Below, in pieces: positions 42,691 to 64,000 of a DNA stretch of 64,000 nt. The position numbers and the translations under genes are program-made. Within the stretch, counting starts at the first letter, position 1; each line of letters opens with the position of its first letter. The notes under the pieces were generated by a model, which saw nothing but the letters and a program-made list of their open reading frames with translations, was not told the origin of the DNA and ran no database searches. The stretch is from Nitrobacteraceae bacterium AZCC 2146 (GTDB lineage: Bacteria; Pseudomonadota; Alphaproteobacteria; Rhizobiales; Xanthobacteraceae), in NCBI GenBank assembly GCA_036924855.1, contig JBAGRP010000001.1, forward strand, positions 6,622,001 to 6,686,000, read 5' to 3'.

Positions 42691-42795
42691 CGAAATCGGG
42701 GCACGCATAATATCCGGCAACAGCCTGTCCAAAGCTTAAGTTGAAAGGGCAGGCGGGGGCGCTCATCTTCAGGCAACTATCCAATGGAGGTTGCC

Positions 42796-43383
42796 ATGAA
42801 GAAGATTTTGCTCGCCAGTGTCGCGGTGCTCGTCCTCGCCGGATCGACCGCGGTCTTTGCCCAGCACCGCCCGTGGTCGCATCAGCACGCCCGGATGAAT
42901 CCGGAAGACCGCGCCGCCTTTGCGGATGCGCGGATCGCCGCGGTGAGGGCCGGGCTGAAGCTGACGCCGGACCAGGAGAAATTGTGGCCACCGGTGGAAG
43001 CCGCGGTGCGCGATTTCGCCAAGCTGCGGATCGACCGCGCCAATGCCCGCATGAATGAGCGTCAGGACGACGCCAAGGGTCCGCAGACGCCGGATAACCC
43101 GGTCGCCCGGCTGCAGCAGCGCGCCGACGCCATGGCCACCACGGCGGCCGCGCTGAAGCGCATCGCCGAGGCTGCCGATCCGCTCTACAAGACCCTCGAT
43201 GACGGCCAGAAGCGCCGGCTGGCGATCCTGACCCATATGGAGGGCCGGTTCGGCGGCGGCGAGGGCTGGCGTGATCGCGGCGGCGAGCGCGATTCCGACC
43301 GGGATGGCGGTCGCGACCGTGACCGCGGCGGTCCGGACAGGGGATTCGGACGGGATCGCGGTCCCGGCCCGGACCGGCTGTAA
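42796..43383 (+). CDS. Periplasmic LTXXQ (Spy/CpxP-like) protein
   Basis: 195-residue protein with a signal peptide (KKILLASVAVLVLAGSTAVFA) and a helical body. The motif LTPDQEKLWPPVEAAVRDFAKLR (from about residue 54) is the LTXXQ signature of Spy/CpxP-type periplasmic chaperones. The C-terminus is unusual: about 45 residues rich in Arg, Asp and Gly (repeats of RDRGG/DRDGGRDRD), probably disordered. The ATG at 42796 has GGAGG upstream. It stands alone and is followed by a strong terminator. Confidence 0.85.
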   Translation: MKKILLASVAVLVLAGSTAVFAQHRPWSHQHARMNPEDRAAFADARIAAVRAGLKLTPDQEKLWPPVEAAVRDFAKLRIDRANARMNERQDDAKGPQTPDNPVARLQQRADAMATTAAALKRIAEAADPLYKTLDDGQKRRLAILTHMEGRFGGGEGWRDRGGERDSDRDGGRDRDRGGPDRGFGRDRGPGPDRL

Positions 43384-50983: not shown

Positions 50984-52426
50984 TTATTCATTGAGTGTCA
51001 TGGGTAGCGGACGCTTCAACAACGAAGCAGGATATTTCCCGCTTCGTTTCAATTTCGCGCCAAGTGACGGATCTGCCAGCCGGAATATCGACCTTGGGCT
51101 TTGATCTGGGCTGGCGGCATGAATGTGCCGGGCCGGCGGGTCGATCGTGATGGCGTCAGAAATATCCAGCTGGCTGAAAGCATTGCGTTCCAACCGCTCG
51201 GAAGGATCTGTCACCAGCACCCATGTTTCATCATCAATCTGCATGACCAGGTCCACGTCGTCATCCCAGGCGCAAAGCACCACCTCCATTTGGGAGAAGC
51301 CCCCCGAATCGCTTGCAAATGCCTGGGCGGCCGCCTCGACGGCGCCGCTGACGCCCTGGGCATTGCTGGCCAGCACGTCACGGATAAGCACCGTAATCGG
51401 ACCGCGCGTGGGCGCCGTGCCGTGCATGATCAGATGAGCCTCGGGTGCCTGATGTCTGCCGAATCGACGCGCGCGCCGGCAGCGCCATGTCAGGTATTCC
51501 TCCGGTTCCTGCTTCATGCCGGAGGGATCGTATTGAATAACCGCGCCATGAACCCGGGCTTGGGAATTCCCCGCTTTCCAGTAACTGTCCGGCAGCCACG
51601 CGGTTTCGATCTGTCTTTGCGAGGAGGCAAGCGTCCATGCCTGATCGAGCAAGAAGGCTTCCGAGAGGTCTGGATAGGCTCTGCTGAGACGCTGCCAAAT
51701 GTCCAGCAGCGCACGCGCGGACTCTGTCTGGTGGAAGAATATAGCGCCGGGTTGCATTTCACCGGAAGGTCGCATGTGGACGGCGAAATCGCATCCGAGT
51801 GACTGAGGCAGCAAAGGATTTTCATGAACCGTCGCCTCGGGGGCAATCCAGAAAACCGGACGGTTCGTCTGCTCCCATTGCCGAATGATAAAATCGATCT
51901 TGGAAGAGCGTTGCGCGCCGACTGTCGTGTCTGGAGCAAGGCCCTCCATGACGCCGTCGAGGCCCAGCCGCTTCAGGTCGAAGGCCAGTTGCGCCGCGGG
52001 AAGAAATCCCCGCCGGTTTGACGAAACAAAGAGCGTGTCCTCTTTGCGATAGAGCCCGGTGGGCACGGAGAGCGGTTTAACGCCGCCCCACCAGATGTGA
52101 TGCGGGGCCGCATTGCCCTGTGACCCGATCGATCCGTAGGCGTGGAGCTTGGATTTGATCAAATCGAAGGTGGGGTTTTCGCCAAACGGAAGGATGACAA
52201 TGGAATTCTCGTGAAGCGAGCTGATCAGGGTCTCGACGCGAGGCGCTGTCGCGGAATTCAGCACGATCACCGAGGTGGCCGGCGCCGTCGCGACGTTCTC
52301 GCCGTCCCATAAGACGGTGTTGCAGTAGCGCCGGGTTAACCGAAGCAGACGGTGGCGCTGTATGGCGCCGAGGGAAAGCGTGTTGGCATTGCCCTCCTTC
52401 AGTAATTCGTCGATGGCATCGCTCAT
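50984..52426 (-). CDS. Putative glycosyltransferase-like protein of unknown function
   Basis: 480-residue protein without signal or membrane segments. The middle (FVSSNRRGFLPAAQLAFDLKRLG; FAVHMRPSGEMQPGAIFFHQTESARALLDIWQRLSRAYPDLSEAFLLDQAWTLA) resembles the nucleotide-diphospho-sugar transferase fold, where a late DQ pair follows a 'single-file' region. No clear DxD motif is seen, so the call is tentative. It is encoded 83 bp downstream of the HAD/PRTase gene on the same strand and next to the flagellin cluster, which suggests a role in glycan or flagellin modification. The start MSDAIDELLKEG at 52426 is chosen. Confidence 0.45.
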   Translation of the reverse strand: MSDAIDELLKEGNANTLSLGAIQRHRLLRLTRRYCNTVLWDGENVATAPATSVIVLNSATAPRVETLISSLHENSIVILPFGENPTFDLIKSKLHAYGSIGSQGNAAPHHIWWGGVKPLSVPTGLYRKEDTLFVSSNRRGFLPAAQLAFDLKRLGLDGVMEGLAPDTTVGAQRSSKIDFIIRQWEQTNRPVFWIAPEATVHENPLLPQSLGCDFAVHMRPSGEMQPGAIFFHQTESARALLDIWQRLSRAYPDLSEAFLLDQAWTLASSQRQIETAWLPDSYWKAGNSQARVHGAVIQYDPSGMKQEPEEYLTWRCRRARRFGRHQAPEAHLIMHGTAPTRGPITVLIRDVLASNAQGVSGAVEAAAQAFASDSGGFSQMEVVLCAWDDDVDLVMQIDDETWVLVTDPSERLERNAFSQLDISDAITIDPPARHIHAASPDQSPRSIFRLADPSLGAKLKRSGKYPASLLKRPLPMTLNE

Positions 52427-52509
52427 GTGCGGTGGACCTGTCAGGAGGGGATATCATGACTGATACGGCCGACAGGCTGAATTCAGGCGAACATGAAATC
52501 TTGCACGGC

Positions 52510-54942
52510 TTACTGCGCCATGACCCGGCCGCCGCTCAGCGGCGTCAAACCGATGCTCATGATCACAACCGGCACCGTCTGAGGCGGAACATTGATGACC
52601 AGGGCCCCGTCGTCCTGCGTCGCGCGAAAATATCGACCGCTGCGAACCAGTCCGGCGTGGCCGACGTGTTCGTCCTGCAACGTTACAATGTCGACGCTCT
52701 GCAGCGCCTCGCTAACGTCCTTTCCGCCGTGCATGAACGGGCCGGAGACGAGCCCCTCCCTTGCCAACTTTGCGATCGGCACGACCACGCATTGAATGCC
52801 CATCCTGTGCGCGATCGGAATTCTCACGCGCATATCTCCGAAGCCGGTTCGATAATAGCTGACCTCCACCAGGCTCGATGAGCCGTCGGCACCGAACAGC
52901 CCGACCGCGATCTGCCCGCATTTGACGTCGTCAAAGATATCCGAGGGCAGTCGGTTCGAGCCGAACAGCAAATAGAGAAAATTGTGAACCGGCGCCAAGG
53001 CTGAGAAGCTGCCCGCGGGCCACATCGGCGGATTTGTGGCCGTGCATGCCAGTGGAAATGCCTGCGCAACATGTAGCCCGCTGGCGAAGTTGCCGTCCAG
53101 CAAAGGTGCGAGGGCGAGGGTGCCGAGATTGACGTCATGGGTCAACGACCCGAGCAGCTGCAATTCGTCGTCGGTGGGCATCAGAAGCAGTCGCCCGAGA
53201 ATAGCTGCGGCCGATCGTGCGGCCACATCGAGGTCCGCGAACGGTGCAAGACGACAGGCCGGAGAAAGCTCGGCCGCAGCCGCGGCAAAGGCGATCGCGC
53301 CCGCCTGGACCTGCTTTCCCAGGTCAAGTTGATCGAGCGGCTGCGGATTGTCCTCGTACAAGGCTTCGCCGTCGCGATAGCTGCGAACGGACCCGGTGGC
53401 CGCGCAGCACATCTGCTCGAGCAACGCGACGTTCCGCAGCAGCATCCGCTTGACGTGCGGCGTCACGACCATGTCGGAGATGAAGCCTTCGAAACTGTCC
53501 TCCCCCGAAAGATCATCGGTCGATTCGTCCGTCGTCAACAGATACAAGCCGTGCAGACGAATGTTGAGACCTTCGATATCGAAGATACTCCGAAGCGACT
53601 TCTGGATACTTCCGGAATAGCCGAGATCGATGACGACCAGATTCCGGCAATCGTCGAAATTCACAATCTGGCGCCGCAGATGGCGCAGCAACTCGATCCG
53701 GATGCCTGCTGCCAGCACGGCGATTTCCCCGGCATCGATCAAGTCGGGAAGCGCGTCGGCCAGTTCTTGGCCGCTCGCTATGCCATTTGCGCAGCTTGCA
53801 AAAAAGTCGGCGACGGAAGCAGGCAGAACCTTTGCTATCTCCGAGAAGGCTTTGGCATCAATCTCGGAAAGCTTGTTTAACAAATCAATCAGCGGATCGA
53901 GCGTCGCGGCCGATCCCATCACGCTGACCCGGCGATTCAATGCGACATAAGACGCCGGTCTGTCTCGCATCTGCTCCCATATTCGATGCGACAGAAAACC
54001 GTCGCGGCCGAGAAATGCCACTGCGGTGCGGCCGTGGCTCCGGTCGATTTTCTCAACACGATCAGCAACGAATGCGTCGAACGCGCGCAAGACGGGCCCG
54101 AGCACGTTGACACCCAGATCGAGCATCGGTGACGTCGCGGGGGACTGCGAAGCGACGACCCGTCGCAATGTTCGCAATCCGTGATCGAGCGTGACGGCCG
54201 TCCCGGGACATAGCAACTCTCCGACGGAGGTCTCCCGGTTGAAAATAGATGCCAGCGCCGGCGTTGACTGAGGATAGTGCCTGGCCGCAATGCCGTAATG
54301 GCGAGCGCCCTCGATATCGGACTTCTCATTGTCTCCCATATGCACGGCGTCGCACGGTGCGACGGATTGCTCCGAGAGATAAACGGAAAAAAGTTTGTCG
54401 CCCTTGTTCGTGCGGCTTTCGCTGGATGAATAAAGGAAATCCCAGCAAAGCCCTGGATGGCACGATTGAAGCAGTTCGGCGAGCTGTGCGACGCTCCAGT
54501 ACGTATCCGAGATGAATCCGGTACGCGCGCCGGCCGCCCGCAGTTCCAGGTATTGCCGAAGCATTCCGGGGTGAGGCCGGCAGAGATCAAGCTCCGCTGC
54601 GAATTCTGCTTGTACGAGATCCGGCAGCGCTGCGCGCGTCAGTCCGAACAGTCGAAGCGGGAAAAGGCTGTAGATCTCCTCGATGCTGACCTCGGCAGAT
54701 CCGGTTTTCTTCAGTGCCGCCTTGCGTGCGCGCGTTTCTGCCTGGCGGCGATGCTGCACATAAGAAGTTGCCGCATTGGGAAACAAACTGAAAACAGCAG
54801 ATAGCTGAAATGCCCGCTCGAAAACCCCCTCCGGTGATGTGCAACTTCGCAGAATAAATGTATCGAACACATCGAATGAGAACGTCTGCGTTTCCAAGCA
54901 TTGCGAATTATATTTTTGCATTTCTGCGTTATGTATATTCAT
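52510..54942 (-). CDS. Large HAD-superfamily protein with PRTase-like domain (COG5610-like)
   Basis: 810-residue protein. Residues 21-235 form a HAD domain: FSFDVFDTFILRS (motif I), TGFISDTYW (motif II), NKGDKLFSVYL (motif III Lys) and VHMGDNEKSDIEGA (motif IV). A second part has TAVAFLGRDGFLSHRIW and NLVVIDLGYSGSIQKSL, a phosphoribosyltransferase-like pattern. The last 250 residues are unassigned. Such proteins usually occur in surface-polysaccharide clusters. The gene is divergent from the ECF sigma gene and shares a strand with the glycosyltransferase-like gene. Confidence 0.65.
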   Translation of the reverse strand: MNIHNAEMQKYNSQCLETQTFSFDVFDTFILRSCTSPEGVFERAFQLSAVFSLFPNAATSYVQHRRQAETRARKAALKKTGSAEVSIEEIYSLFPLRLFGLTRAALPDLVQAEFAAELDLCRPHPGMLRQYLELRAAGARTGFISDTYWSVAQLAELLQSCHPGLCWDFLYSSSESRTNKGDKLFSVYLSEQSVAPCDAVHMGDNEKSDIEGARHYGIAARHYPQSTPALASIFNRETSVGELLCPGTAVTLDHGLRTLRRVVASQSPATSPMLDLGVNVLGPVLRAFDAFVADRVEKIDRSHGRTAVAFLGRDGFLSHRIWEQMRDRPASYVALNRRVSVMGSAATLDPLIDLLNKLSEIDAKAFSEIAKVLPASVADFFASCANGIASGQELADALPDLIDAGEIAVLAAGIRIELLRHLRRQIVNFDDCRNLVVIDLGYSGSIQKSLRSIFDIEGLNIRLHGLYLLTTDESTDDLSGEDSFEGFISDMVVTPHVKRMLLRNVALLEQMCCAATGSVRSYRDGEALYEDNPQPLDQLDLGKQVQAGAIAFAAAAAELSPACRLAPFADLDVAARSAAAILGRLLLMPTDDELQLLGSLTHDVNLGTLALAPLLDGNFASGLHVAQAFPLACTATNPPMWPAGSFSALAPVHNFLYLLFGSNRLPSDIFDDVKCGQIAVGLFGADGSSSLVEVSYYRTGFGDMRVRIPIAHRMGIQCVVVPIAKLAREGLVSGPFMHGGKDVSEALQSVDIVTLQDEHVGHAGLVRSGRYFRATQDDGALVINVPPQTVPVVIMSIGLTPLSGGRVMAQ

Positions 54943-55467
54943 TACAGAATCCCAGTCGCCGTGTTCAATAAACGACAGCGCACAGAAAATCAGGCGAAAA
55001 AGTAATGCGCCGAGTGAGATTTCGGGAGACCACTGATACCGCAGTTCAAAAATGCGATAGCTTCAAATCATCGATTCGAATCAGTTTTCAGAATGAGGTG
55101 TTATTAGCAATCGCTGCTCATTCGTGGTGATGCGGTTCGTGTCGAATGCGAAGTGATAGGCAGTCGTTCGTTGGTTCGTATTTTCTGCGTCGTTGTGGAA
55201 GCCGAAGCAGAAATCGAGTGGCTGTTTCAGCGGAGGTGGTTTTTGCGATCGCTTGCGCGGCAATTCGGTGAATGGATAGCGCCATCTCGCGGGGCAGATC
55301 GGATCGATCGGGATGGGAATATCTTGCCGATCAGCAGGCATTAAATGCCCAGTAAGCGACTGTAAAATACATGGAAATTGTTCGCCCGGTTTTGCGCGCG
55401 CGGGCGTTCAACACTCGGAAGCCTTGCGGGCTAATCGTCCGCTGGCATAGCGAGTCGGGAGATACGG
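54943..55467. other. Low-GC intergenic region between the HAD gene and the ECF sigma gene
   Basis: About 525 bp, clearly lower in G+C than the flanks, containing promoters for two divergent genes. Short open frames (for example 55081-55341 minus, 86 codons) have no family resemblance and no RBS. TGTAAAATACA (near 55363) is a small palindrome. No clear -35/-10 or ECF-type motif could be assigned. Confidence 0.45.
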
Positions 55468-56154
55468 ATGGCGTACGCGCTTGATATCTGGGCTCCGGCC
55501 GATAGTGCGCCGGCAGTCATTTCGAAGGCGGAGAGCAGTTCGCCGGAGCCCATGAGAGCTTCGCGAGATGATGTTACGCTGGCACCGGTTCAGGATGAAG
55601 ACGAAGAACTTCTCAATCGGCTTGCTTCGAATGACGAGGCTGCATTTCGACTCCTGGTCGAGCGCCACATCGATCGGGCATTTGGAATCGCCCTCCGCAT
55701 CGTCGGTAGTCGTGCGGATGCGGAAGATGTCGTCCAGGACACCATGCTCAAGGTATGGACGCATCGCGGGAGATGGCAGCACGGGCGCGCCAAGTTCTCC
55801 ACATGGCTTTACCGCGTCGTCACCAATCGCTGCATCGATCTTCACCGCAGGCCTCGCACCGACAACGTGGATGCGGTGCCGGAGCCGGCGGACGCGCAGC
55901 CTGACGTTGTCAGCACCATGCAGCGTGACGAAGTCACGCATATGTTGGAAAATGCGATGCAGCGGTTGCCAGAGCAGCAGCGTGTCGCGGTCATTCTCTC
56001 TTATCATGAGAACATGAGTAATGGTGAGATCGCCGAAGTGATGGACACGACGGTCTCGGCCGTCGAGTCCCTCCTCAAGCGCGGCCGTCAGCAGCTCCGT
56101 GACCTGCTCCGTCGGCACGAGCCGGACATCCGTCACTCGTTTACCGATTACTAA
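55468..56154 (+). CDS. ECF-type RNA polymerase sigma factor
   Basis: 228-residue sigma factor with regions 2 and 4 only. Region 2 reads FRLLVERHIDRAFGIALRIVGSRADAEDVVQDTMLKVWTHRGRW, and region 4 reads LPEQQRVAVILSYHENMSNGEIAEVMDTTVSAVESLLKRGRQQLRDLL. An N-terminal extension of about 45 residues is unusual. In relatives, sigma factors of this sort are encoded beside a small membrane protein and a periplasmic metal-sensor-like protein. Here those genes lie 3.4 kb downstream (59554 and 60027), after fliC, fliD and fliS. Control of the flagellin genes is inference. Confidence 0.92.
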   Translation: MAYALDIWAPADSAPAVISKAESSSPEPMRASRDDVTLAPVQDEDEELLNRLASNDEAAFRLLVERHIDRAFGIALRIVGSRADAEDVVQDTMLKVWTHRGRWQHGRAKFSTWLYRVVTNRCIDLHRRPRTDNVDAVPEPADAQPDVVSTMQRDEVTHMLENAMQRLPEQQRVAVILSYHENMSNGEIAEVMDTTVSAVESLLKRGRQQLRDLLRRHEPDIRHSFTDY

Positions 56155-56298
56155 CCATAATCCAGTCGACCCCGGTTAAATCCCGCCTGACTTTGGCCTG
56201 CTGACCCGTTGTACCGGGTGGACGGGGGCTGGCCTGCGTCTGGGATCACCATCCCCGTGACGCGGCACACGCTGCCGCACAATCCAAGGAGCACTGCA

Positions 56299-57123
56299 AT
56301 GCCCGTCATCAATACCAACACCGCCGCCAACTCTGCCGTAAAATATCTGAACATCAACGCGGCTCAGGAATCGAGCTCGCTCGGAAAGCTGTCGAGTGGC
56401 TCGAAGATCACCAAGGCTTCCGATGACGCCGCCGGCCTCGCGATTTCGACGCGCATTTCGTCTGACATCACCACCCTGCAGCAGGCCGCAACCAACGCTT
56501 CGCAGGCGACGTCGATCCTGCAAACCGCCGACGGCGGCGCTTCGAACATCAGCGACATCCTGGCTCGTATGAAATCGCTGGCGTCGGAATCCGCGTCGGG
56601 CACCGTCACCGACAGCAGCCGGACCTACATCAACTCGGAATTCACCGAGCTGACGAGTGAAATCGACAGCATCGCGACAGGTACGCGCTACAGCGGCCAG
56701 AGCCTGCTCGATGGCAGCAGCTCGTTCGCGTCTGGCGTTTCCGTTCTGGTCGGATCTTCGGCGTCGGACACCATCACGGTCAAGCTGACCAGCCTTACGT
56801 CCAGCACGCTCGGTATCACTTCGCTGGACATCAGCACGCAGGACGGCGCAACGTCGGCGCTCACCACGCTCGATGATGCCATCGATACCGTGTCGGCTGC
56901 GCGGGCGACGATCGGCGCCCAGGAATCGCGCTTCAATTTCAGCGCCAGCTCGATCTCGACCCAGACGGAAAACCTTCAGTCTGCCAATTCGGCGATCACC
57001 GACGTCGATATCGCGGCGGAGCAGGCCAAGTTGTCCTCTGCCGAGGTCAAGACGCAGGCCGCGGTGTCCGCTGAATCTGCGGCCAACAAGATGCCGCAGT
57101 ATCTGCTGAATCTGCTGGGTTAA
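56299..57123 (+). CDS. fliC: Flagellin
   Basis: 274-residue flagellin. The N-terminal D0/D1 segment has SLGKLSSGSKITKASDDAAGLAISTRISSDITTLQQAATNASQATSILQTADG, and the C-terminal D1/D0 has DAIDTVSAARATIGAQESRFNFSASS and ends MPQYLLNLLG. The central variable region is only about 100 residues, so D2/D3 surface domains are nearly absent. The protein has no cysteine and very high Ser/Thr/Ala. CCAAGGAGC precedes the ATG. It lies 144 bp after the ECF sigma gene and 63 bp before fliD. Confidence 0.96.
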   Translation: MPVINTNTAANSAVKYLNINAAQESSSLGKLSSGSKITKASDDAAGLAISTRISSDITTLQQAATNASQATSILQTADGGASNISDILARMKSLASESASGTVTDSSRTYINSEFTELTSEIDSIATGTRYSGQSLLDGSSSFASGVSVLVGSSASDTITVKLTSLTSSTLGITSLDISTQDGATSALTTLDDAIDTVSAARATIGAQESRFNFSASSISTQTENLQSANSAITDVDIAAEQAKLSSAEVKTQAAVSAESAANKMPQYLLNLLG

Positions 57124-57186
57124 CGAAGGTGATGACGGGCTGGCAGCGCGTGCCGGCCCGTCATTTCTCGTATCGGGGGAGCGGCC

Positions 57187-58884
57187 ATGACAACGGTTAG
57201 CAGTACGGCTTCTACCACCACGACGGCCGCGAGCACCGCAAGTACGACGACGACATCCGGAACCAAGACCACCACCAGCGTCGATTGGGACGCGCTGATT
57301 GCAGCGCAGGTCGCAACCAAGACGGCCCAGGCAACGACCATCGACACCAAGATAACTGCCAACGAAGCCAAGATCGCGGCCTACCAGAGCCTTCAGACGC
57401 TGTTGAGCACGCTCTCCACCGACACAGATTCGTTGAGCGATTCAATCGTCAACTCACTATCCTCGAGTGTTTATGGCACCAGGGCGGCCACCATCACCAC
57501 GACCGGCGATGTCAGCGCAAGCGCGGCTTTGTCGATGTCGATCAGCAACGGCGCGGCAACGGGCGACCATACCCTGACGATCAGCCAGATTGCGGAAGCG
57601 CAGAAGGTTCTGGGCTCCGCGGTTTCCGACCAGACGGCGGAGCTTGGCTACGCCGGAACGTTTTCCCTCGGCCTGGCGGACGGAACCAGCGCGGATATCT
57701 CGGTCTCCAGCGGAATGTCGCTGGAGGATTTGGTCGATGCGATTAATGCACAGACCTCGACCACGAATGTCCAGGCTTCGATCATCCAGGTGTCCAGCAC
57801 CGATTTTGAAATGGTGTTGTCGGCTACCAAGGATAATGCGGACATCGTCACCAGCAGCGTGTCGGGCGACGATGTCATGAACGAGCTTGGCGTGACCGAC
57901 AGTTCCGGCGATTTCACGAACGTGCTGCAGGTCGCGCAGGCCGCTGTCTTCACCCTCGATGGGATATCGATCACGCGGGATACCAACGATATCACCGACG
58001 TTCTCAGCGGGGTCACCTTCAACCTGCTGCAGACGACGCCGACCGGGGCGACGGTCAATATCGCCATTGAAGCGGACACGAGTTCAATCGAGACCGCGCT
58101 GCAGACGTTTGTGACCTCGTACAACGCTTTTCGCGATTACGTCGCCGGTCAACAGACACTTGCCAGCGACGGCACGGTGGATTCCACGTCGGTGCTGTTC
58201 GGTGACGGCACCCTGCGCGATATCACGACGCAGATGGAGCAGGCGCTGAACTCTTCGATCGGTGGGCTGTCGCTCTCCGATCTCGGGCTGTCGTTCGACG
58301 AAACTAATGATCTGGTGCTCGATACGAGCGTTCTGTCTACCACGATGACAAATAGTCTTGATGACGTCATATCGCTGCTGGCGAACCGGGTAACCCCGTC
58401 ATCCAGCAGCCTTGCGGTGGTCAATATCGGCACGTCGGTTCCGGCTTCCTTTACGCTTGACCTCGTTGTCGACGGATCCGGAAGCCTGACATCCGCGTCC
58501 GTCGGCGGAGACAGCTCGCTCTTTACGGTGAGCGGCAATTCGATCATCGGAAAATCGGGCACGATCTATGCTGGCCTGGCGTTCACCTATACCGGATCGA
58601 CCTCGCAATCGATTGCTATCACCGCCACCTCTGGAATCGCCGCGCAGATCCACAGCATCGCTAAAAGCACCTCGAATACCAGTACGGGCACGATCCAGAG
58701 CGTAATCACCAACCTGCAGGCGCAGGACGATACCATGCAGACGCAGATCGATGACATCAATGCGAGAGCGGCGGTCTACAAGGATATGCTGACCGCGCAG
58801 TACGCAAAATACCAGTCGGCCATTTCGAGCGCCAATTCGATGCTCGATTATCTTTCAGCTCTCCTCAATAGTTCCGGAAATTGA
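57187..58884 (+). CDS. fliD: Flagellar filament cap protein FliD
   Basis: 565-residue hook-associated protein 2 that caps the filament and folds incoming flagellin. After an unusual N-terminus of about 30 residues made almost wholly of Thr/Ser/Ala, SVDWDALIAAQVATKTAQATTIDTKITANEAKIAAYQSLQ is the FliD N-domain. The FliD_C region includes TFVTSYNAFRDYVAGQQ and LNSSIGGLSLSDLGLSFDETNDLVLD, and the coiled C-terminus is INARAAVYKDMLTAQYAKYQSAISSANSMLDYLSALL. fliS follows 2 bp after the stop. Confidence 0.93.
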   Translation: MTTVSSTASTTTTAASTASTTTTSGTKTTTSVDWDALIAAQVATKTAQATTIDTKITANEAKIAAYQSLQTLLSTLSTDTDSLSDSIVNSLSSSVYGTRAATITTTGDVSASAALSMSISNGAATGDHTLTISQIAEAQKVLGSAVSDQTAELGYAGTFSLGLADGTSADISVSSGMSLEDLVDAINAQTSTTNVQASIIQVSSTDFEMVLSATKDNADIVTSSVSGDDVMNELGVTDSSGDFTNVLQVAQAAVFTLDGISITRDTNDITDVLSGVTFNLLQTTPTGATVNIAIEADTSSIETALQTFVTSYNAFRDYVAGQQTLASDGTVDSTSVLFGDGTLRDITTQMEQALNSSIGGLSLSDLGLSFDETNDLVLDTSVLSTTMTNSLDDVISLLANRVTPSSSSLAVVNIGTSVPASFTLDLVVDGSGSLTSASVGGDSSLFTVSGNSIIGKSGTIYAGLAFTYTGSTSQSIAITATSGIAAQIHSIAKSTSNTSTGTIQSVITNLQAQDDTMQTQIDDINARAAVYKDMLTAQYAKYQSAISSANSMLDYLSALLNSSGN

Positions 58885-58886
58885 TA

Positions 58887-59288
58887 ATGAACAGGTCAAT
58901 GTCTCAGGCGAACCAGGCTTATCGCAGCGCGTCGGTGGCCGTCCCGCCGCTGAAGGCGATGATCATGCTGCACGAGGGGGCTATGATGTTCCTTCAGAAG
59001 GCGATTCAAGCTGCCGAGGCGCGACGGTTTGAGGAGAGCCATGGTTACATGATGCGCGCCACTGCGATCTTGCGGGGCCTTAGCCACAATCTGGATTTCA
59101 ATCGCGGCGGCGCCGTAGCCGAACGGCTGTACCGTACCTACCATGCGCTCATCATGGCTTGCTTGCGGTCATTCGGCCGGCCCGATGCATCGGCAAGCTA
59201 TCATCGCATCGTCGCAAGCCTGGCCGAATTGCGGGATGCGTGGAAATTTGTCGCGGTCACCACGACAAAAACGACCGGGACATTGTGA
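58887..59288 (+). CDS. fliS: Flagellar export chaperone FliS
   Basis: 133-residue helical protein: NQAYRSASVAVPPLKAMIMLHEGAMMFLQKAIQAAEARRFEESHGYMMRATAILRGLSHNLDFNRGG matches the FliS four-helix core that binds the flagellin C-terminus before export. The C-terminal helix is AELRDAWKFVA. It starts 2 bp after the fliD stop (ATG 58887 or 58899), so the two are coupled. A 265-bp gap with no gene follows. Confidence 0.88.
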   Translation: MNRSMSQANQAYRSASVAVPPLKAMIMLHEGAMMFLQKAIQAAEARRFEESHGYMMRATAILRGLSHNLDFNRGGAVAERLYRTYHALIMACLRSFGRPDASASYHRIVASLAELRDAWKFVAVTTTKTTGTL

Positions 59289-59553
59289 TCCAGGCATGAA
59301 CGGACGCGGCTCTCGACGCAATAATGGGCTGGCCGTTGCGCCGCATCTCGCGGAACGCTGGGCATGCATCCGGCTGTCGTTTCGGTCCCTCGGTGCGGGA
59401 CGGATATTTCCGGCTTTAAAGGCCTTCCAGCACTGTTCATAAGCGAAGACCGTATGCAGCTTTGCCGCCGGCATGCTATCGTGCCGGAGTACCAGCGCCT
59501 GTTTCCAGGGCAGGCACAGTGTGGTCGTGCGATCGGAACAGATATTGCCTTTG

Positions 59554-59997
59554 ATGAATATTACGGAATTCGAGGATTTGCTCGACCGGCTTGGGGAGGA
59601 TATGTCCATCTGGCCCGTGCCGCTGCAGCAGGCGGCCGCCGTTTTGCTGCGCTCCTCCGACGAAGCCCGCAGGCTCCTGGAAGAAACCAGACTGATGAGA
59701 CGGGCCCTCGCCGGCGCCCCCATCCGGGCACCGGCCGGGCTTGCCGACAGGATCATGCTGGGTGTCCGTCAGCCGGCACCTGAGCCCGCCGCCGCTCCCT
59801 CGCGACCTTTATCCGGCGGGAATGGCGCGCGTGTATCCCTGAAGTCGCCACGCCCGCTGACTTTGGCCTTCACGGCGTGCTTTCTGGCCGGAATATTCGT
59901 CGGGATTTTCCCATCCTTATTGCCCGATGAACCCGCCCGCATCGATTTCCCCAGCTTTCTGGCCCACGTGATGGATATCTCGCGCGCGACCGACTAG
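59554..59997 (+). CDS. Putative anti-sigma-type small membrane protein
   Basis: 147-residue protein. The N-terminal segment FEDLLDRLGEDMSIWPVPLQQAAAVLLRSSDEARRLLEETR is the conserved cytoplasmic part seen in small proteins encoded next to alphaproteobacterial ECF sigma genes. A single membrane helix follows (LTLAFTACFLAGIFVGIFPSLL, about residues 107-128). It lies just ahead of a metal-sensor-like gene. Together they look like the control pair for the ECF sigma factor at 55468, although no direct binding evidence is visible. A TTG three bases upstream is an alternative start. Confidence 0.6.
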   Translation: MNITEFEDLLDRLGEDMSIWPVPLQQAAAVLLRSSDEARRLLEETRLMRRALAGAPIRAPAGLADRIMLGVRQPAPEPAAAPSRPLSGGNGARVSLKSPRPLTLAFTACFLAGIFVGIFPSLLPDEPARIDFPSFLAHVMDISRATD

Positions 59998-60026
59998 TGA
60001 TCGCTGCAGATACTGGAACGATTGCC

Positions 60027-60530
60027 ATGCGGTTTCCGCAAATTACCCTGTCTTCCCTTGCGCTTGTGGTCTCGGTTGGCGTCAATCTGTTTGTCGCAGG
60101 CTGGCTCGTGGGCGATCGCGCGGGATATCGCGGGCCGCCGCCACCACCACCACCGGGTTCGATGCAGCCATTTCTTGCATCTCTGGAAGGCACGCTAAGC
60201 CCAGGCGGAGCCAGGGTCATGGATACCATGGTTCGGGGCCTTCAGGGTCGCGGCCCGCTTTTTCGCAGGTTCGAGGACCTCGGCGAGCGCATGCAGAAGG
60301 CCCTTGTTGGCGAGCGGTTCGATCGGGCCGCCTTTCTGGCTGCGGCTCAGGAACTGAACGCAGAGCAGTCGGCAGACCGCATGGCCGTGGCCGAGGAAAT
60401 TGCCAATGCGATGGAGAAATTATCCCCCGAGGATCGCAAGCGCCTTGCCGAGATGAGGCCAGATCACGGTTTTGGCGGCGGCATTTCTCGCTATTTGCCG
60501 GGGGCCAATTTTCCGGGACCCCGACGTTAG
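60027..60530 (+). CDS. Periplasmic heavy-metal-sensor-like protein
   Basis: 167-residue protein with an N-terminal membrane anchor (LSSLALVVSVGVNLFVAGWLVGD), a Pro-rich linker (PPPPPPPG), and a helical periplasmic domain (RFEDLGERMQKALVGERFDRAAFLAAAQELNAEQSADRMAVAEEIANAMEKLSPEDRKRLAEM). This matches the CnrX/ZraP-like 'periplasmic heavy metal sensor' family. No metal-binding His or Cys cluster is obvious, so sensing of metal is doubtful. The upstream GTG at 59997 overlaps the previous stop (alternative start); ATG 60027 gives a direct membrane anchor. Confidence 0.75.
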   Translation: MRFPQITLSSLALVVSVGVNLFVAGWLVGDRAGYRGPPPPPPPGSMQPFLASLEGTLSPGGARVMDTMVRGLQGRGPLFRRFEDLGERMQKALVGERFDRAAFLAAAQELNAEQSADRMAVAEEIANAMEKLSPEDRKRLAEMRPDHGFGGGISRYLPGANFPGPRR

Positions 60531-60887
60531 GGCTCGATCCTGGCACCAGATCAGACCTGTTGAAAATCATCTTGTCTGACGTGCAGGCAGGATAACCCAG
60601 CCTGTTCGCAAGGCGACTGCACCATCCAGAGATCCGCACCGGGTAATTTTTGCCGGCATACGCCGTGTGGTCTCCAGCCGCGGCGTCGAGATGACAAACA
60701 GAATGAAATCCCTTGAATAAAGCGCGATGCGCGCCAGTGCGCGCCAGCTTGGCAGTCCGCTCACGCAGAAATTCTGCCTGAAATCGTCGCGCCGCCCGTT
60801 TCAATACAGAGCGGAAATCAACGTCACCAAAAACTGCCGCAACAATTCCAGAGCGCGTTCGCGCCCCGGAAGCGGCTGGAGCATGCC
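60531..60887. other. Intergenic region ahead of flgD
   Basis: About 357 bp with no credible gene. It must hold the promoter for flgD-flgE onward. I see no clean sigma-54 (-24/-12) or sigma-28 motif; TTGGCAG...ACGCA near 60749 has wrong spacing. The GC-rich inverted arms near 60725 are weak. Confidence 0.4.
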
Positions 60888-61559
60888 ATGAGTGTTAGCG
60901 CAACGACTGCAACAACCGCGGCCACGACCGCAGCTACCACAGCGAGTTCGACTTCGACAGCCGCGTCGTCGCTGACATCGAGCGATTTCCTGACGCTGCT
61001 CGTCAGCGAACTGCAGAATCAAAATCCGCTCGATCCCACCAGCACGACGGACTTCGTCAACCAGCTGGCGTCGTATGCAAACTTCGATTCACAGACCACG
61101 CTCAACTCCAACATGAGCGCGCTCACGACTTCGTTCAACAGCCTCATGACGCTGAACTCTGCCAACTACATCGGCCACACGATCGAAGCCACCGGCGATA
61201 CCGGAACTCTGCAAAACGGCGAGATTGAATTCGGATATTCGCTGACTTCGGCTGCGAAGAACGTCACGCTCACCGTCAGCGATTCATCGGGCAATGCGGT
61301 GTGGACCGGCAGCGGAACGACGACCTCCGGTGACAACAGCTTTACGTGGGACGGAACCAAGACGGACGGAACGCAGCTCAGCGATGGCGGTCAGTACACG
61401 CTCAGCGTGACGGCCACCGACGCCAGCGGAGCCTCCGTCTACGATTCCACCACGGTTTCCGGCACCGTCACCAGCGTCGATTTTTCGAGCAGCACGCTGA
61501 AGCTCTTGATCGGAAATACTTCCGTCTCTTCCGCCGACGTTATCGGCGTCACATCCTGA
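60888..61559 (+). CDS. flgD: Flagellar hook assembly scaffold FlgD
   Basis: 223-residue FlgD, the cap that guides hook polymerisation. The N-terminal 28 residues are almost all Thr/Ala/Ser. The conserved FlgD motif SSDFLTLLVSELQNQNPLDPTSTTDFVNQLASYANFDSQTTLN follows, and the C-terminal half has FlgD-type Ig/tudor-like strands (GNAVWTGSGTTTSGDNSFTWDGTKTDGTQLSDGGQYTLSV). The start MSVSATTAT is at the ATG. flgE follows after 19 bp. Confidence 0.93.
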   Translation: MSVSATTATTAATTAATTASSTSTAASSLTSSDFLTLLVSELQNQNPLDPTSTTDFVNQLASYANFDSQTTLNSNMSALTTSFNSLMTLNSANYIGHTIEATGDTGTLQNGEIEFGYSLTSAAKNVTLTVSDSSGNAVWTGSGTTTSGDNSFTWDGTKTDGTQLSDGGQYTLSVTATDASGASVYDSTTVSGTVTSVDFSSSTLKLLIGNTSVSSADVIGVTS

Positions 61560-61578: not shown

Positions 61579-62838
61579 ATGAGTCTTTCAGGAGCGCTTT
61601 CATCCGCGATTTCGGCACTGAGCGCGCAAAGCCAGGCGCTGGCGGTCATCAGTGACAACATCGCAAACTCGCAGACGACAGGTTACAAGACGAACTCGGC
61701 ACTGTTCGAGTCTCTGGTCACGAGTTCGTCGAGCGCCTCTTCCTATTCATCGGGAGGGGTCACGAGCAGCGCGCGATCGAACATTTCCGCGCAAGGGCTG
61801 CTGACGACGACGACCAATGCAACCGACATCGCCATCCAGGGCAACGGATTTTTCCCGGTGACGACGTCGCTCACGGGTGGTTCCACGCTCTATACGCGAA
61901 ATGGCACCTTCTCGATCGATAGCAGCGGCTATCTCGTCAATGATGGCTCCTATCTGCTCGGCTGGCGCACGGATGCCTCGGGTGCAGTTGTCGGAAGCTC
62001 CAGCAGCGATACCCTTGTGCCGATCGACACCAGCATCGCGGCGACGAGCGGAAGCGCCACCACCACGACGACGGTCGCCGCAAATCTGCCGGCGGACGCC
62101 GCCGTCAACGCAACATTTACAAGCTCGATGTCCGTATACGACTCGCTCGGAACGGCGAATACGGTTCAGGTCACGTGGACGAAGACGGCGGAAAACAACT
62201 GGTCTGCCAGCTTTGGCAATCCGACGCTGTCGTCCGACTCGACCCAAACGACCGGGACGACGTCGGGATCGATCGCAGTCGTTTTCAACAGTGACGGCTC
62301 TTTGGCGAGCGCCACCCCGGCAACGATCAGCATCTCGGGATGGACCGATGGCGCTGCTGACAGCACCATCACGATGAATCTCGGAACTGCCGGCAAGACC
62401 GATGGGCTTTCGCAATACGCATCGGGCGCGACAACGCCGGCGGTCGATGTAACCAGCATCTCGTCGGACGGTCTGCCATACGGCAAGCTCAGCAGCGTTG
62501 CTGTCGGTGACGACGGAGTCGTCAACGCGACCTATTCCAACGGACAGACGATCGCGATCTACAAGATTCCGGTAGCGACGTTTACGGCACCTGACGGCTT
62601 GCAGGCAAAGAGCAACGGGCTCTATGCGGCAACGGCGGATTCGGGGAGCGCGGTGGTGCAGGCCTCCGGCACCAATGGGGCAGGCACCATCTATGGCAGT
62701 GAACTGGAAGCAAGCACCACCGACACCAATACGGAGTTCAGCTCGATGATATCGGCCCAGCAAGCCTATTCGGCGGCGTCGCAGGTCATTACGGCCGTCA
62801 ACAAGATGTTCGATACGCTGATCTCGGCTGTCAGGTAA
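61579..62838 (+). CDS. flgE: Flagellar hook protein FlgE
   Basis: 419-residue hook protein. The N-terminal rod/hook motif LSGALSSAISALSAQSQALAVISDNIANSQTTGYKTNSALFESLV and GNGFFPVTTSLTGGSTLYTRNGTFSIDSSGYLVNDGSYLLGW are canonical, as is the C-terminal GSELEASTTDTNTEFSSMISAQQAYSAASQVITAVNKMFDTLI. The middle domain is variable. It starts 19 bp after flgD and is followed 6 bp later by a small gene. Confidence 0.95.
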   Translation: MSLSGALSSAISALSAQSQALAVISDNIANSQTTGYKTNSALFESLVTSSSSASSYSSGGVTSSARSNISAQGLLTTTTNATDIAIQGNGFFPVTTSLTGGSTLYTRNGTFSIDSSGYLVNDGSYLLGWRTDASGAVVGSSSSDTLVPIDTSIAATSGSATTTTTVAANLPADAAVNATFTSSMSVYDSLGTANTVQVTWTKTAENNWSASFGNPTLSSDSTQTTGTTSGSIAVVFNSDGSLASATPATISISGWTDGAADSTITMNLGTAGKTDGLSQYASGATTPAVDVTSISSDGLPYGKLSSVAVGDDGVVNATYSNGQTIAIYKIPVATFTAPDGLQAKSNGLYAATADSGSAVVQASGTNGAGTIYGSELEASTTDTNTEFSSMISAQQAYSAASQVITAVNKMFDTLISAVR

Positions 62839-62844
62839 TCCCAT

Positions 62845-63105
62845 ATGGGCAACAATGACGCTGATGAGAAACTGTTTTCCAGGCTTCGCCGGATCGCGAT
62901 GTCGATCAAGACGGCGAGTCCCCTCGACAACCGTCGGCGCCTGCTCGCCCTGGAAGCCGATCTTCGGTCTGTCCGGGATGGTCTGGACCAGCGCTGTCGT
63001 CTCCTGACGCAGAAAATGAACGAGGCTGGCGCCCAGTTGAACGCCGTATCGGCTTACGCCCGCTGCGCGTCACTTCGGCGCGATCCGTCGCAACCGTCAA
63101 ACTAA
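62845..63105 (+). CDS. Small flagellar-cluster protein of unknown function
   Basis: 86-residue protein that is helical and charged (DEKLFSRLRRIAMSIKTASPLDNRRRLLALEADLRSVRDGLDQRCRLLTQKMNEAG), like a chaperone or regulator in size. It starts 6 bp after flgE and ends 19 bp before a FlgN-like gene, so it is part of the flgE-flgK operon. No family was recognised. A role in export of hook-junction proteins is possible but unproven. Confidence 0.6.
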   Translation: MGNNDADEKLFSRLRRIAMSIKTASPLDNRRRLLALEADLRSVRDGLDQRCRLLTQKMNEAGAQLNAVSAYARCASLRRDPSQPSN

Positions 63106-63124: not shown

Positions 63125-63583
63125 ATGAGCCCCGAACGACAATCACGACAGTCGATGGCCCGAACTGGCGGCGGACGCATTGAGGATCTCATCGAGCTGA
63201 TCGATGCGCTGCTTGACGTCGTCACCGAGGAGAATATCGCGCTGGCGATAGGGCTGCCCGCGTCGCAATCGCGCCATACCGAGCGCAAGCTAGTGCTTGC
63301 GGACCAATTCGAGAAATGGGTAGTTGATGTGACGATGCGGCAGCGGCTGTTGAGCACGCCCGACAAGGCGTTGCAGGGGAAGGTGCTGCAGCATATCGAA
63401 TCGCTCCGTTCGGCGATGGATGAGAACGTGATGCGGTTGCGGGCGGCGATCGAGGCGAGCCAGCGGCGGATCGACGCGGTCATGGCGGCAATCCGCGAGC
63501 AGATCTCGGATAATTCGCCCTACAATGCCAAGGGCCGCGTCAACGGTCATTCAGCGTCCTACGCTACCAGCATAAGAGCGTAA
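63125..63583 (+). CDS. FlgN-like flagellar chaperone
   Basis: 152-residue helical protein: IEDLIELIDALLDVVTEENIALAIGLPASQSRHTERKLVLADQFEKWVVDV and a long C-terminal helix (ESLRSAMDENVMRLRAAIEASQRRIDAVMAAI). The size, all-helical content and position directly upstream of flgK match FlgN, which carries FlgK/FlgL to the export gate. The last 15 residues (NAKGRVNGHSASYATS) look flexible. It starts 19 bp after the preceding gene. Confidence 0.75.
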   Translation: MSPERQSRQSMARTGGGRIEDLIELIDALLDVVTEENIALAIGLPASQSRHTERKLVLADQFEKWVVDVTMRQRLLSTPDKALQGKVLQHIESLRSAMDENVMRLRAAIEASQRRIDAVMAAIREQISDNSPYNAKGRVNGHSASYATSIRA

Positions 63584-63608: not shown

Positions 63609-64000
63609 GTGTCGCTCGACGTCGCACTCCGCATCGCCACCAGCAGCTTGATGACGACGCAGGTTCAGATCAGCGTCGCATCGGCGAATATTTCGAACGC
63701 GGACACGACGGGCTACACGGTCAAGACCGCGAACCAGGTGGCGACCGTCAGTGCCGGTGTCGGTACCGGGACGATGATCACTGGCATCACCAGCAACGTG
63801 GACAAGTTGCTGCTGAAATCTCTGATGCAGGCGACATCGGCGCTTGGCTCCGCAGACACCAGTAACAGTTATCTCAACGAGCTGCAGGCGCTGTACGGAA
63901 CATCGAGCGGTACGGATAGCACGGGAACGTCGCTCGCCAATACCATTGCCTCGCTGGAAACGGCGATCTCCTCGTTATCCGGGACGTCAAGCAGCGCTGC
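63609..64000 (+). CDS. flgK: Flagellar hook-associated protein FlgK, N-terminal part
   Basis: The frame opens at a GTG at 63609 and runs past the window end, so only about 130 residues are visible. ALRIATSSLMTTQVQISVAS, followed by ANISNADTTGYTVK, is the canonical FlgK/rod-protein N-terminal motif. NQVATVSAGVGTGTMITGIT and LMQATSALGSADTSNSYLNELQALYG continue as in FlgK. It starts 25 bp after the FlgN-like gene. The gene is cut by the window, not broken. Confidence 0.88.
   Translation, partial: MSLDVALRIATSSLMTTQVQISVASANISNADTTGYTVKTANQVATVSAGVGTGTMITGITSNVDKLLLKSLMQATSALGSADTSNSYLNELQALYGTSSGTDSTGTSLANTIASLETAISSLSGTSSSA

Follow-up and report, generated by a model that had tools for sequence, protein, structure and literature searches.

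A promoter signature common to an ECF sigma factor gene, fliC-fliD-fliS and flgD, and a predicted membrane-anchored anti-sigma factor, in a Nitrobacteraceae bacterium

A flagellum-specific sigma factor was previously not known in the Alphaproteobacteria, according to the available portions of a paper in J Bacteriol (29 Dec 2025; PMC12826043), the source of all of the Azospirillum experiments cited below. The promoter of fliC2 in Azospirillum brasilense was determined by 5' rapid amplification of cDNA ends and by deletion to be CGCCAG-N16-CGTGAG; its activity requires the extracytoplasmic function (ECF) sigma factor RpoE6, and it is silent in the absence of RpoE6. The protein Asf6 binds RpoE6 in a two-hybrid assay and opposes it. 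The same portions note synteny in Bradyrhizobium, R. palustris, and Magnetospirillum, with R. palustris BisA53 and B. diazoefficiens 110spc4 among the strains that have the cluster, and the two genes behind fliS are called 'hp, hp' (PMC12826043). In this report, we describe a locus with an ECF sigma factor gene followed by fliC, fliD, fliS, and genes for a predicted membrane-anchored anti-sigma factor (AS) and a protein of the PF13801 (Metal_resist) family (MR). It lies in a stretch of 64,000 nucleotides from Nitrobacteraceae bacterium AZCC 2146 (contig JBAGRP010000001.1, positions 6,622,001 to 6,686,000), which we call the window. We consider it probable that this sigma factor activates its own gene together with the genes for hook and filament, with the membrane protein encoded behind fliS predicted as its anti-sigma factor.

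The core of the system, an ECF sigma factor and an anti-sigma factor that control a small flagellin, is already published for Azospirillum (late 2025; PMC12826043, in its available portions). New are the predicted three-promoter regulon, the identity of the two 'hp' genes, the coupling of sigma factor and filament cap across the order, an anchor and an MR protein that mostly vanish together, and the membrane-anchored, sensor-bearing, split arrangement itself. No other paper describing this system was found in a literature search by title and abstract, whose coverage left most subscription journals outside.

Gene order and predicted promoters of the sigma-fliC-fliD-fliS cluster

An earlier note on this DNA had read the order sigma-fliC-fliD-fliS-AS-MR on one strand. 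That order is exact. The six genes are all on the plus strand, and Pfam and NCBIfam matches support the sigma regions, the flagellin, FliD, FliS, and Metal_resist. The genes and predicted sites are as follows.

55337..55349, + strand: dyad GGCA-N5-TGCC, a candidate activator site, 46 bp ahead of the -35 box of P1
55383..55408, + strand: P1, predicted ECF-type promoter of the sigma gene, CGCCCG-N16-CGTT
55468..56154, + strand: ECF sigma factor, 228 aa, PRK12538 family (428 bits), sigma regions 2 and 4, relative of Azospirillum RpoE6
56184..56210, + strand: P2, predicted ECF-type promoter of fliC, CGCCTG-N17-CGTT, 115 bp 5' of the ATG
56299..57123, + strand: fliC, small flagellin, 274 aa from the ATG, Flagellin_N/C (PF00669/PF00700)
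57187..58884, + strand: fliD, filament cap, FliD_N/C (PF02465/PF07195)
58887..59288, + strand: fliS, flagellin export chaperone (PF02561)
59554..59997, + strand: AS, predicted membrane-anchored anti-sigma factor, 147 aa, ATG at 59554, from homology to Asf6 and hydropathy
60027..60530, + strand: MR, PF13801 (Metal_resist) protein, predicted periplasmic input partner of AS, 167 aa, with an N-terminal hydrophobic stretch visible in the sequence
60775..60800, + strand: P3, predicted ECF-type promoter of flgD, TGCCTG-N16-CGTT
60888..61559, + strand: flgD, hook cap (PF03963/PF13860)

A bipartite site, composed of CGCCTGAATT, 11 or 12 bases, and CCGTTTAA, was found to be common to the regions upstream of sigma, fliC, and flgD in 22 loci of the family. 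A promoter matrix trained on 61 sites from these loci was tested on 34 held-out loci, using as threshold the 99th percentile of 2,040 control windows in which the true regions were masked. The span searched was 390 bp for the sigma region and 250 bp for the other genes and the controls, and loci without a usable start for a given gene were excluded from the count for that gene. The held-out loci above threshold were 33 of 34 for sigma, 32 of 34 for fliC, and 29 of 30 for flgD, with corresponding values of 0/32 for fliS, 0/32 for AS, and 1/30 for flgE. At the training loci of the family, 20/22 (sigma), 22/22 (fliC), and 22/22 (flgD) exceeded the 99th percentile of 1,320 windows, together with 1/19 for AS and none of 22 for each of fliD, fliS, and flgE. 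The loci are related, and hence these tests are not independent trials. The promoter-like sites stand at near-constant distances from their genes, other families included, and in the lineages with multiple flagellins 13 of the 14 further strong sites precede an extra copy of fliC. The predicted sites are convincing through their position and conservation, not through the motif alone.

Because one promoter signature is common to sigma, fliC-fliD-fliS, and flgD, the sigma factor likely drives its own gene and the hook-and-filament genes. The step from sigma factor to promoter depends on this conservation and on the Azospirillum data, and the assignment of AS as anti-sigma factor on homology. The control link between sigma factor and flagellin that the earlier note had proposed is strengthened by the conserved promoter at sigma, fliC, and flgD and by the homology of the AS N-terminus to Asf6, the binder and opponent of RpoE6.

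A second element was found upstream of P1. In 13/22 loci of the family and 14/33 of the order, the 120 bp that precede the sigma promoter contain the dyad GGCA-N5-TGCC, compared with 32/880 and 53/1320 control windows, respectively. The dyad lies near -66/-67 in several relatives, and two copies 21 bp apart are present in L054 and L196. The dyad hints at an activator that would tie the sigma gene to the flagellar hierarchy. This enrichment could also mean that the flagellar genes are really driven by some other regulator, such as a sigma-54/FlbD-type or CtrA-type activator, with the ECF sigma factor doing no more than fine-tuning a minor flagellin; the same could be read from the report that loss of RpoE6 in Azospirillum causes no detectable swimming defect in swim plates (PMC12826043). 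However, the dyad was absent upstream of fliC (0/22 family and 0/33 order loci), where an ECF-type site is found in nearly all loci, and the Azospirillum fliC2 promoter is silent without RpoE6. A regulator that acts on the sigma gene would, moreover, sit above the sigma step rather than replace it. We therefore regard another driver as unlikely. Upstream of flgD the dyad was found in 4/22 family and 3/29 order loci.

The family sample consists of 149 genomes. A sigma match at E <= 1e-40 was found in 37 of these at 40 places, and the 39 places besides that of the window were fetched. The order sigma-fliC-fliD-fliS, with flgD-flgE later, was present at 21 of the 39 (sigma 60-86% identity). Among the 24 other family places with a sigma identity of at least 59%, 21 are flagellar and the remaining three (L075-L077; 59-60% identity) are second sigma copies, located in genomes that also hold a flagellar copy and adjoining genes that by eye resemble a membrane fusion protein/resistance-nodulation-division (MFP-RND) pair. 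In other families of the order, 33 loci show sigma-fliC(1-5)-fliD-fliS as far as the contig reaches; in one lineage (L219-L228) the sigma gene is followed by two to five copies of fliC, many of which have a promoter-like site of their own about 105 bp upstream. Among named loci at 57-79% sigma identity there are 14 close ones, of which the six that were labeled (L101-L106, from Rhodopseudomonas, Bradyrhizobium, Rhodoplanes, Bosea, and Pleomorphomonas) have the same gene order, and their names point to the Hyphomicrobiales as the order in question; L093-L100 were left out. The comparison across related genomes that the earlier note had called for thus recovered sigma-fliC-fliD-fliS at 21 other family loci and 33 order loci.

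The co-occurrence of the sigma factor with FliD was determined from listings for 347 genomes of the order, using a strong sigma match (E <= 1e-79) and a FliD_N match above the cut-off. Both were present in 39 genomes, FliD only in 1, sigma only in 0, and neither in 307. Weaker sigma matches (E 3e-55 to 9e-46), separated from the strong ones by a wide gap in E value, were not taken as orthologues. In the single FliD-only genome (G154), FliD sits on a contig of 3,417 bp, and 3 of the 307 genomes with neither have a FliD_N match under the cut-off. The Fisher p value for the association, which ignores relatedness, was 6e-51. The sigma and fliD genes are on one contig within 10 kb of each other in 38 of the 39 pairs and within 3 kb in 28. 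In listings for 337 genomes across the class, FliD_N was above the cut-off in 67 and a linked sigma factor was found in only 7. In the sample of the order, the arrangement is conserved at every occurrence of this type of flagellum. The tight coupling of sigma factor and FliD is a feature of the order, not of the class.

The predicted anti-sigma factor and the PF13801 protein

The predicted layout of AS is a four-helix N-terminal domain (residues 3-72), a linker, and a hydrophobic helix at residues 102-122, and the protein carries a DLLDRLGEDMSIWP stretch. In the structural model the block-mean pLDDT (the per-residue model confidence) is 93-99 across residues 1-70. The N-terminal domain is homologous to Asf6 (L173, L175), with phmmer and hidden Markov model (HMM) matches and identities of 29% to the A. 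brasilense and 33% to the A. lipoferum protein. Residues G14, W20, and P21 are invariant across 38 AS sequences. No Pfam family was listed for AS up to E 1 and no FlgM match was found; a single weak NCBIfam match to 'anti-sigma factor' scored 21 bits vs a cut-off of 100. A Foldseek search with the model gave no match better than E 5.6, and the AS profile gave no match to PDB sequences up to E 1. From its homology, AS is predicted to be the anti-sigma factor of this sigma factor.

It is very unlikely that AS is not the partner and that the sigma factor is instead under a different anti-sigma factor or is controlled solely through its own expression. Three of the 22 family loci have no AS at this place, and the binding evidence comes from Azospirillum, outside the family. 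However, AS homologues were found behind fliS in 19/22 family loci (18 of the 21 others and the window) and in 31 of the 33 order loci outside the family, where both misses are contig ends, and Asf6 binds RpoE6 by two-hybrid assay (PMC12826043, available portions).

Most of the AS homologues seen are proteins of 74-125 aa that have no hydrophobic helix and no MR beside them, although place and promoters are kept. The pair AS-MR is consequently not a constant part of the arrangement, a correction to the reading of the earlier note: most of the relatives seen have no MR, and their AS is mostly short and helix-less. MR was found with 11 of 13 anchored AS proteins and with 0 of 38 unanchored ones (11 loci with both, 2 with the anchor only, 38 with neither). 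The anchor was called from hydropathy and from reading of the sequences. Loci L072-L074, which have no AS, were left out of this count; the trees do not include the named loci or L229 and L230, two family loci that turned up a second time in the sample of the order, and L198, L204, L206, L208, L212, L217, L221, L224, and L226 were dropped before tree building as near-duplicate or cut. Pfam was run on the MR proteins of the window, L065, L067, L070, L079, L091, and L239-L241, among which that of L070 fell under the cut-off (26.3 vs 29.2); the other MR calls were made with our own HMM or phmmer.

The label 'metal-sensor-like' that the earlier note had given to MR is not borne out by an alignment of 10 MR sequences, in which His or Cys stays below half of the rows in every column and Met reaches that level only at start-like columns. 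With no conserved His/Cys ligand column, metal sensing by MR is unsupported. The MR profile gave 8 weak matches to PDB sequences (E 0.013-0.97), two of them Spy-type. Our guess, from its co-occurrence with the anchor and from the precedent of the CnrYXH triad, is that MR may be the input partner of AS.

In the mechanism that we propose, the four-helix domain of AS (residues 3-72) would clamp the sigma factor at the inner membrane, and MR would hold or release AS according to the state of the envelope or of flagellar assembly. On release, the sigma factor would transcribe its own gene from P1, fliC-fliD-fliS from P2, and the flgD hook operon from P3. AS and MR lie behind fliS with no promoter site of their own, and therefore read-through from P2 would raise the inhibitor together with the product, as negative feedback. 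In an alternative reading, what relieves the anti-sigma factor, as in the case of FlgM, is flagellar export or a cytoplasmic cue, with MR a bystander. The short, helix-less, MR-less homologues at the same place and with the same promoters fit such a cue, whereas the hydrophobic helix and MR are both kept in this genome and the distribution of MR follows that of the anchor. We judge relief by export or a cytoplasmic cue to be a serious, if rather unlikely, alternative to input through MR.

Several further observations weigh against our reading of a sigma factor that activates its own gene as well as the hook and filament genes under control of AS. For this genome the reading rests on sequence, the expression and binding evidence being from Azospirillum; there, FliC2 is a minor flagellin and RpoE6 also has non-flagellar targets, and the role of the B. 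diazoefficiens counterpart is stated as undescribed in the available portions (PMC12826043). The motif by itself is weakly specific: genome-wide, its strict form gave 13 matches vs 9 for the reversed pattern, in a scan with one spacer length only, so that P2 is outside that list. Six of the 33 held-out fliD regions exceed the promoter threshold, and L174 (probably the same record as L236 of the tree) is under it at both sigma and flgD. In A. lipoferum a relaxed pattern gave 8 matches in 20 kb, three of which precede flgD, the gene just upstream of flgK, and fliC; a matrix score of at least 14 retains one site only, before the gene just upstream of flgK, and the relaxed-pattern sites can be taken as a lead. 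Three of the 22 family loci (L072-L074) keep sigma-fliC-fliD-fliS and the flgD site with no recognizable AS or MR between fliS and flgD. The match of AS to the fold of RsiW, which with RskA and ChrR stands for the helical bundle of class I anti-sigma domains, is weak. When relatedness is respected, the association of anchor and MR is not significant: supported branches yield 3-4 independent pairs, and the sign test has a median p of 0.25. Most relatives, the two loci of the same genus among them, have neither MR nor the anchor, and therefore an envelope input cannot be general. The cluster is also a minority trait, present in 22/149 family and 39/347 order genomes, and the sigma gene was found in only 2 of the 6 other same-genus genomes sampled.

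Origin of the arrangement and neighboring genes

The earlier note had held that sigma genes of this type often directly precede an AS-MR pair. This proved correct for 14 of the 15 more distant sigma loci of the family (43-50% identity), which are adjacent sigma-AS-MR triads; the 15th is cut by a contig end. Several of the triads lie by eye beside efflux-type genes, with OEP and HlyD families confirmed at L078 and HlyD at L087. No flagellar genes were found in the fetched stretches of the triad loci L078-L091, and the promoter matrix fails at 13 of these 14 loci. Over triad-type and paralogous sigma genes together, it passes the threshold in 1 of 17 upstream regions. Sigma factor and promoter may have diverged together, because several of these regions carry a related CGCAGGGTTT...GGGTTCAA-like form.

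In the sigma tree, which was rooted on triad-type sigma factors as an outgroup of our choosing, the 14 triad sigma factors of the family form one clade (support 100/99). The flagellar sigma factors (54 rows, Azospirillum included) stand apart from them, with support of 95/76 alone, a value not starred, and of 100/98 with three paralogues. In three loci of other orders (L239, L240, and L241), an unbroken series of sigma, AS with a hydrophobic helix, and MR comes after fliC-fliD-fliS. In Azospirillum and L238 only sigma and AS, and no MR, stand behind fliS; the sigma gene is first in L236, L237, and all labeled loci of the order. L241 is on a long end branch and L239/L240 are on a long shared branch, so their exact place in the tree is unsure. 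These loci and the adjacent triads lend weight to the suggestion of the earlier note that the cassette was inserted into an older three-gene module. The simplest reading is that a triad was recruited beside fliC-fliD-fliS and that a rearrangement then placed these genes between sigma and AS-MR, the direction being inferred. An envelope-stress triad would in this way have been recruited to the flagellar filament operon, fliC-fliD-fliS would later have come to separate sigma from AS-MR in this order, and in most lineages AS would have been trimmed to a soluble protein of 74-125 aa and MR lost.

That triads with no flagellar genes exist, several of them by efflux-type genes, and that MR belongs to PF13801 could suggest that the triad here still serves envelope or efflux stress and that the flagellar genes are passengers within it. 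We find this extremely improbable, as other families, too, have the predicted promoter before fliC and flgD, at distances that hardly vary, the sigma factor is present in 39 of 40 FliD genomes, and no efflux gene was apparent by eye in the gene calls next to the flagellar cluster.

Downstream of flgD, the cluster continues as follows.

61579..62838, + strand: flgE, hook protein, a conserved neighbor whose same-place homologue is annotated flgE in Azospirillum lipoferum
62845..63105, + strand: 86-aa protein with no Pfam family; a similar-sized protein is behind flgE in Azospirillum lipoferum
63125..63583, + strand: FlgN-like protein, 20.1 bits, under the Pfam cut-off of 30.5
63609..64000, + strand: flgK, which runs beyond the end of the window to 65381
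65394-66305: flgL-like gene after flgK, outside the window

The genes downstream of the flgL-like gene have no flagellar look. The gap between fliC and fliD contains a GC-rich inverted repeat (57133-57164 of the window), and by eye similar ones are there in many other family loci; it may be an attenuator through which flagellin mRNA stays in excess. Divergent from the cluster, on the minus strand at 50984-54942 of the window, are a 480-aa gene with no Pfam family, a relative of which is present in 15/22 family loci (window counted), and an 810-aa, weakly HAD-like gene. A role of these two in flagellin modification is possible. Elsewhere in the window, an LTXXQ-family (PF07813) protein is encoded at 42784-43383. 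In the same genome, a fliI-fliJ pair and flhA flank a second ECF sigma gene (L233:7667-9108; C1 ~6293667-6295108 with its partner), and an RskA_C-type anti-sigma gene overlaps the end of this sigma gene.

The genome also contains a second hook-filament kit (L234:5496-16988; C1 ~2.25 Mb), with two large flagellins (~750 aa, DUF1522), an FlgE-type protein, FlgK, an FlgL-like protein, FlbT, and FlaF. One FlhA was found in the genome. A more far-reaching interpretation, which we put forward tentatively and regard as possible but doubtful, is that the Alphaproteobacteria have in this system their own FliA-FlgM. Captured by the filament operon, an envelope-stress triad would have turned, across the whole order, into a late-gene switch dedicated to the FliD-type flagellum. 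The membrane form that survives here would read the envelope or the growing hook-basal body, and sister lineages would repeatedly have shed anchor and sensor, the inhibitor shrinking to a soluble protein the size of FlgM. With one FlhA and two hook-filament kits in the genome, the switch may exchange the complete outer flagellum while a single engine is kept. Among the 39 genomes with sigma factor and FliD, FlhA was found once in 12, twice in 25, three times in 1, and not at all in 1 fragmented genome; with such counts, the notion of two outer kits sharing an engine could hold for no more than some of these genomes, this one included.

The results suggest that in one order a flagellar sigma factor accompanies the FliD-type filament almost without exception. 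They give its likely regulon (its own gene, flagellins, and the hook operon), single out its probable anti-sigma factor from genes that had no annotation, and present a natural series of inhibitors that runs from membrane-anchored to soluble. With three predicted promoters to use as reporters, the signal that opens the switch becomes testable.

Comparison with described sigma factor systems

The adjacent triads L078-L091 have a homologous sigma factor (43-50%), an AS, and a PF13801-like protein. They differ from the locus described here in that their genes are adjacent, no flagellar genes were found in the stretches fetched, the matrix fails at 13/14, and their sigma factors form a separate clade. 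FliA-FlgM follows a like logic, late genes being governed by a sigma factor together with its anti-sigma factor, and the size of FlgM is near that of the short AS relatives (74-125 aa). However, the sigma factor described here has regions 2 and 4 only, with PRK12538 as its best family, and not the FliA-type regions 2, 3, and 4, and AS has no FlgM domain match.

The system is like CnrYXH of Cupriavidus metallidurans in outline, with an ECF sigma factor, a membrane anti-sigma factor, and a sensor protein (PMC4803752, PMC7406223; available portions of both). The available portions of the latter describe CnrY as a class II anti-sigma factor (PMC7406223). The MR profile has no match to CnrX among solved structures, and no conserved metal ligands were seen in the 10 aligned MR sequences. 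The target also differs: here it would be the flagellum, with conserved sites before sigma, fliC, and flgD, whereas CnrYXH targets RND efflux.

RpoE6-Asf6 is the closest described system. The sigma factor is 50% identical to Azospirillum RpoE6 over 159 residues, fliC-fliD-fliS is beside the sigma gene in both, and the anti-sigma factors are homologous over the N-terminal ~70 residues. The -35 box of P2 differs by one base from that given in the available portions of PMC12826043, the -10 boxes share CGT, and the spacing is 16-17. In contrast, the Azospirillum sigma gene follows fliS with asf6 directly behind it, and here the sigma gene is first and AS is displaced behind fliS. Asf6 is a protein of 98 aa with no hydrophobic helix, whereas AS is predicted to be anchored; no MR is annotated beside asf6, and here MR follows AS. 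Finally, no promoter was found directly before rpoE6, as far as the available portions of that paper go, whereas the sigma gene described here has its own promoter-like site.

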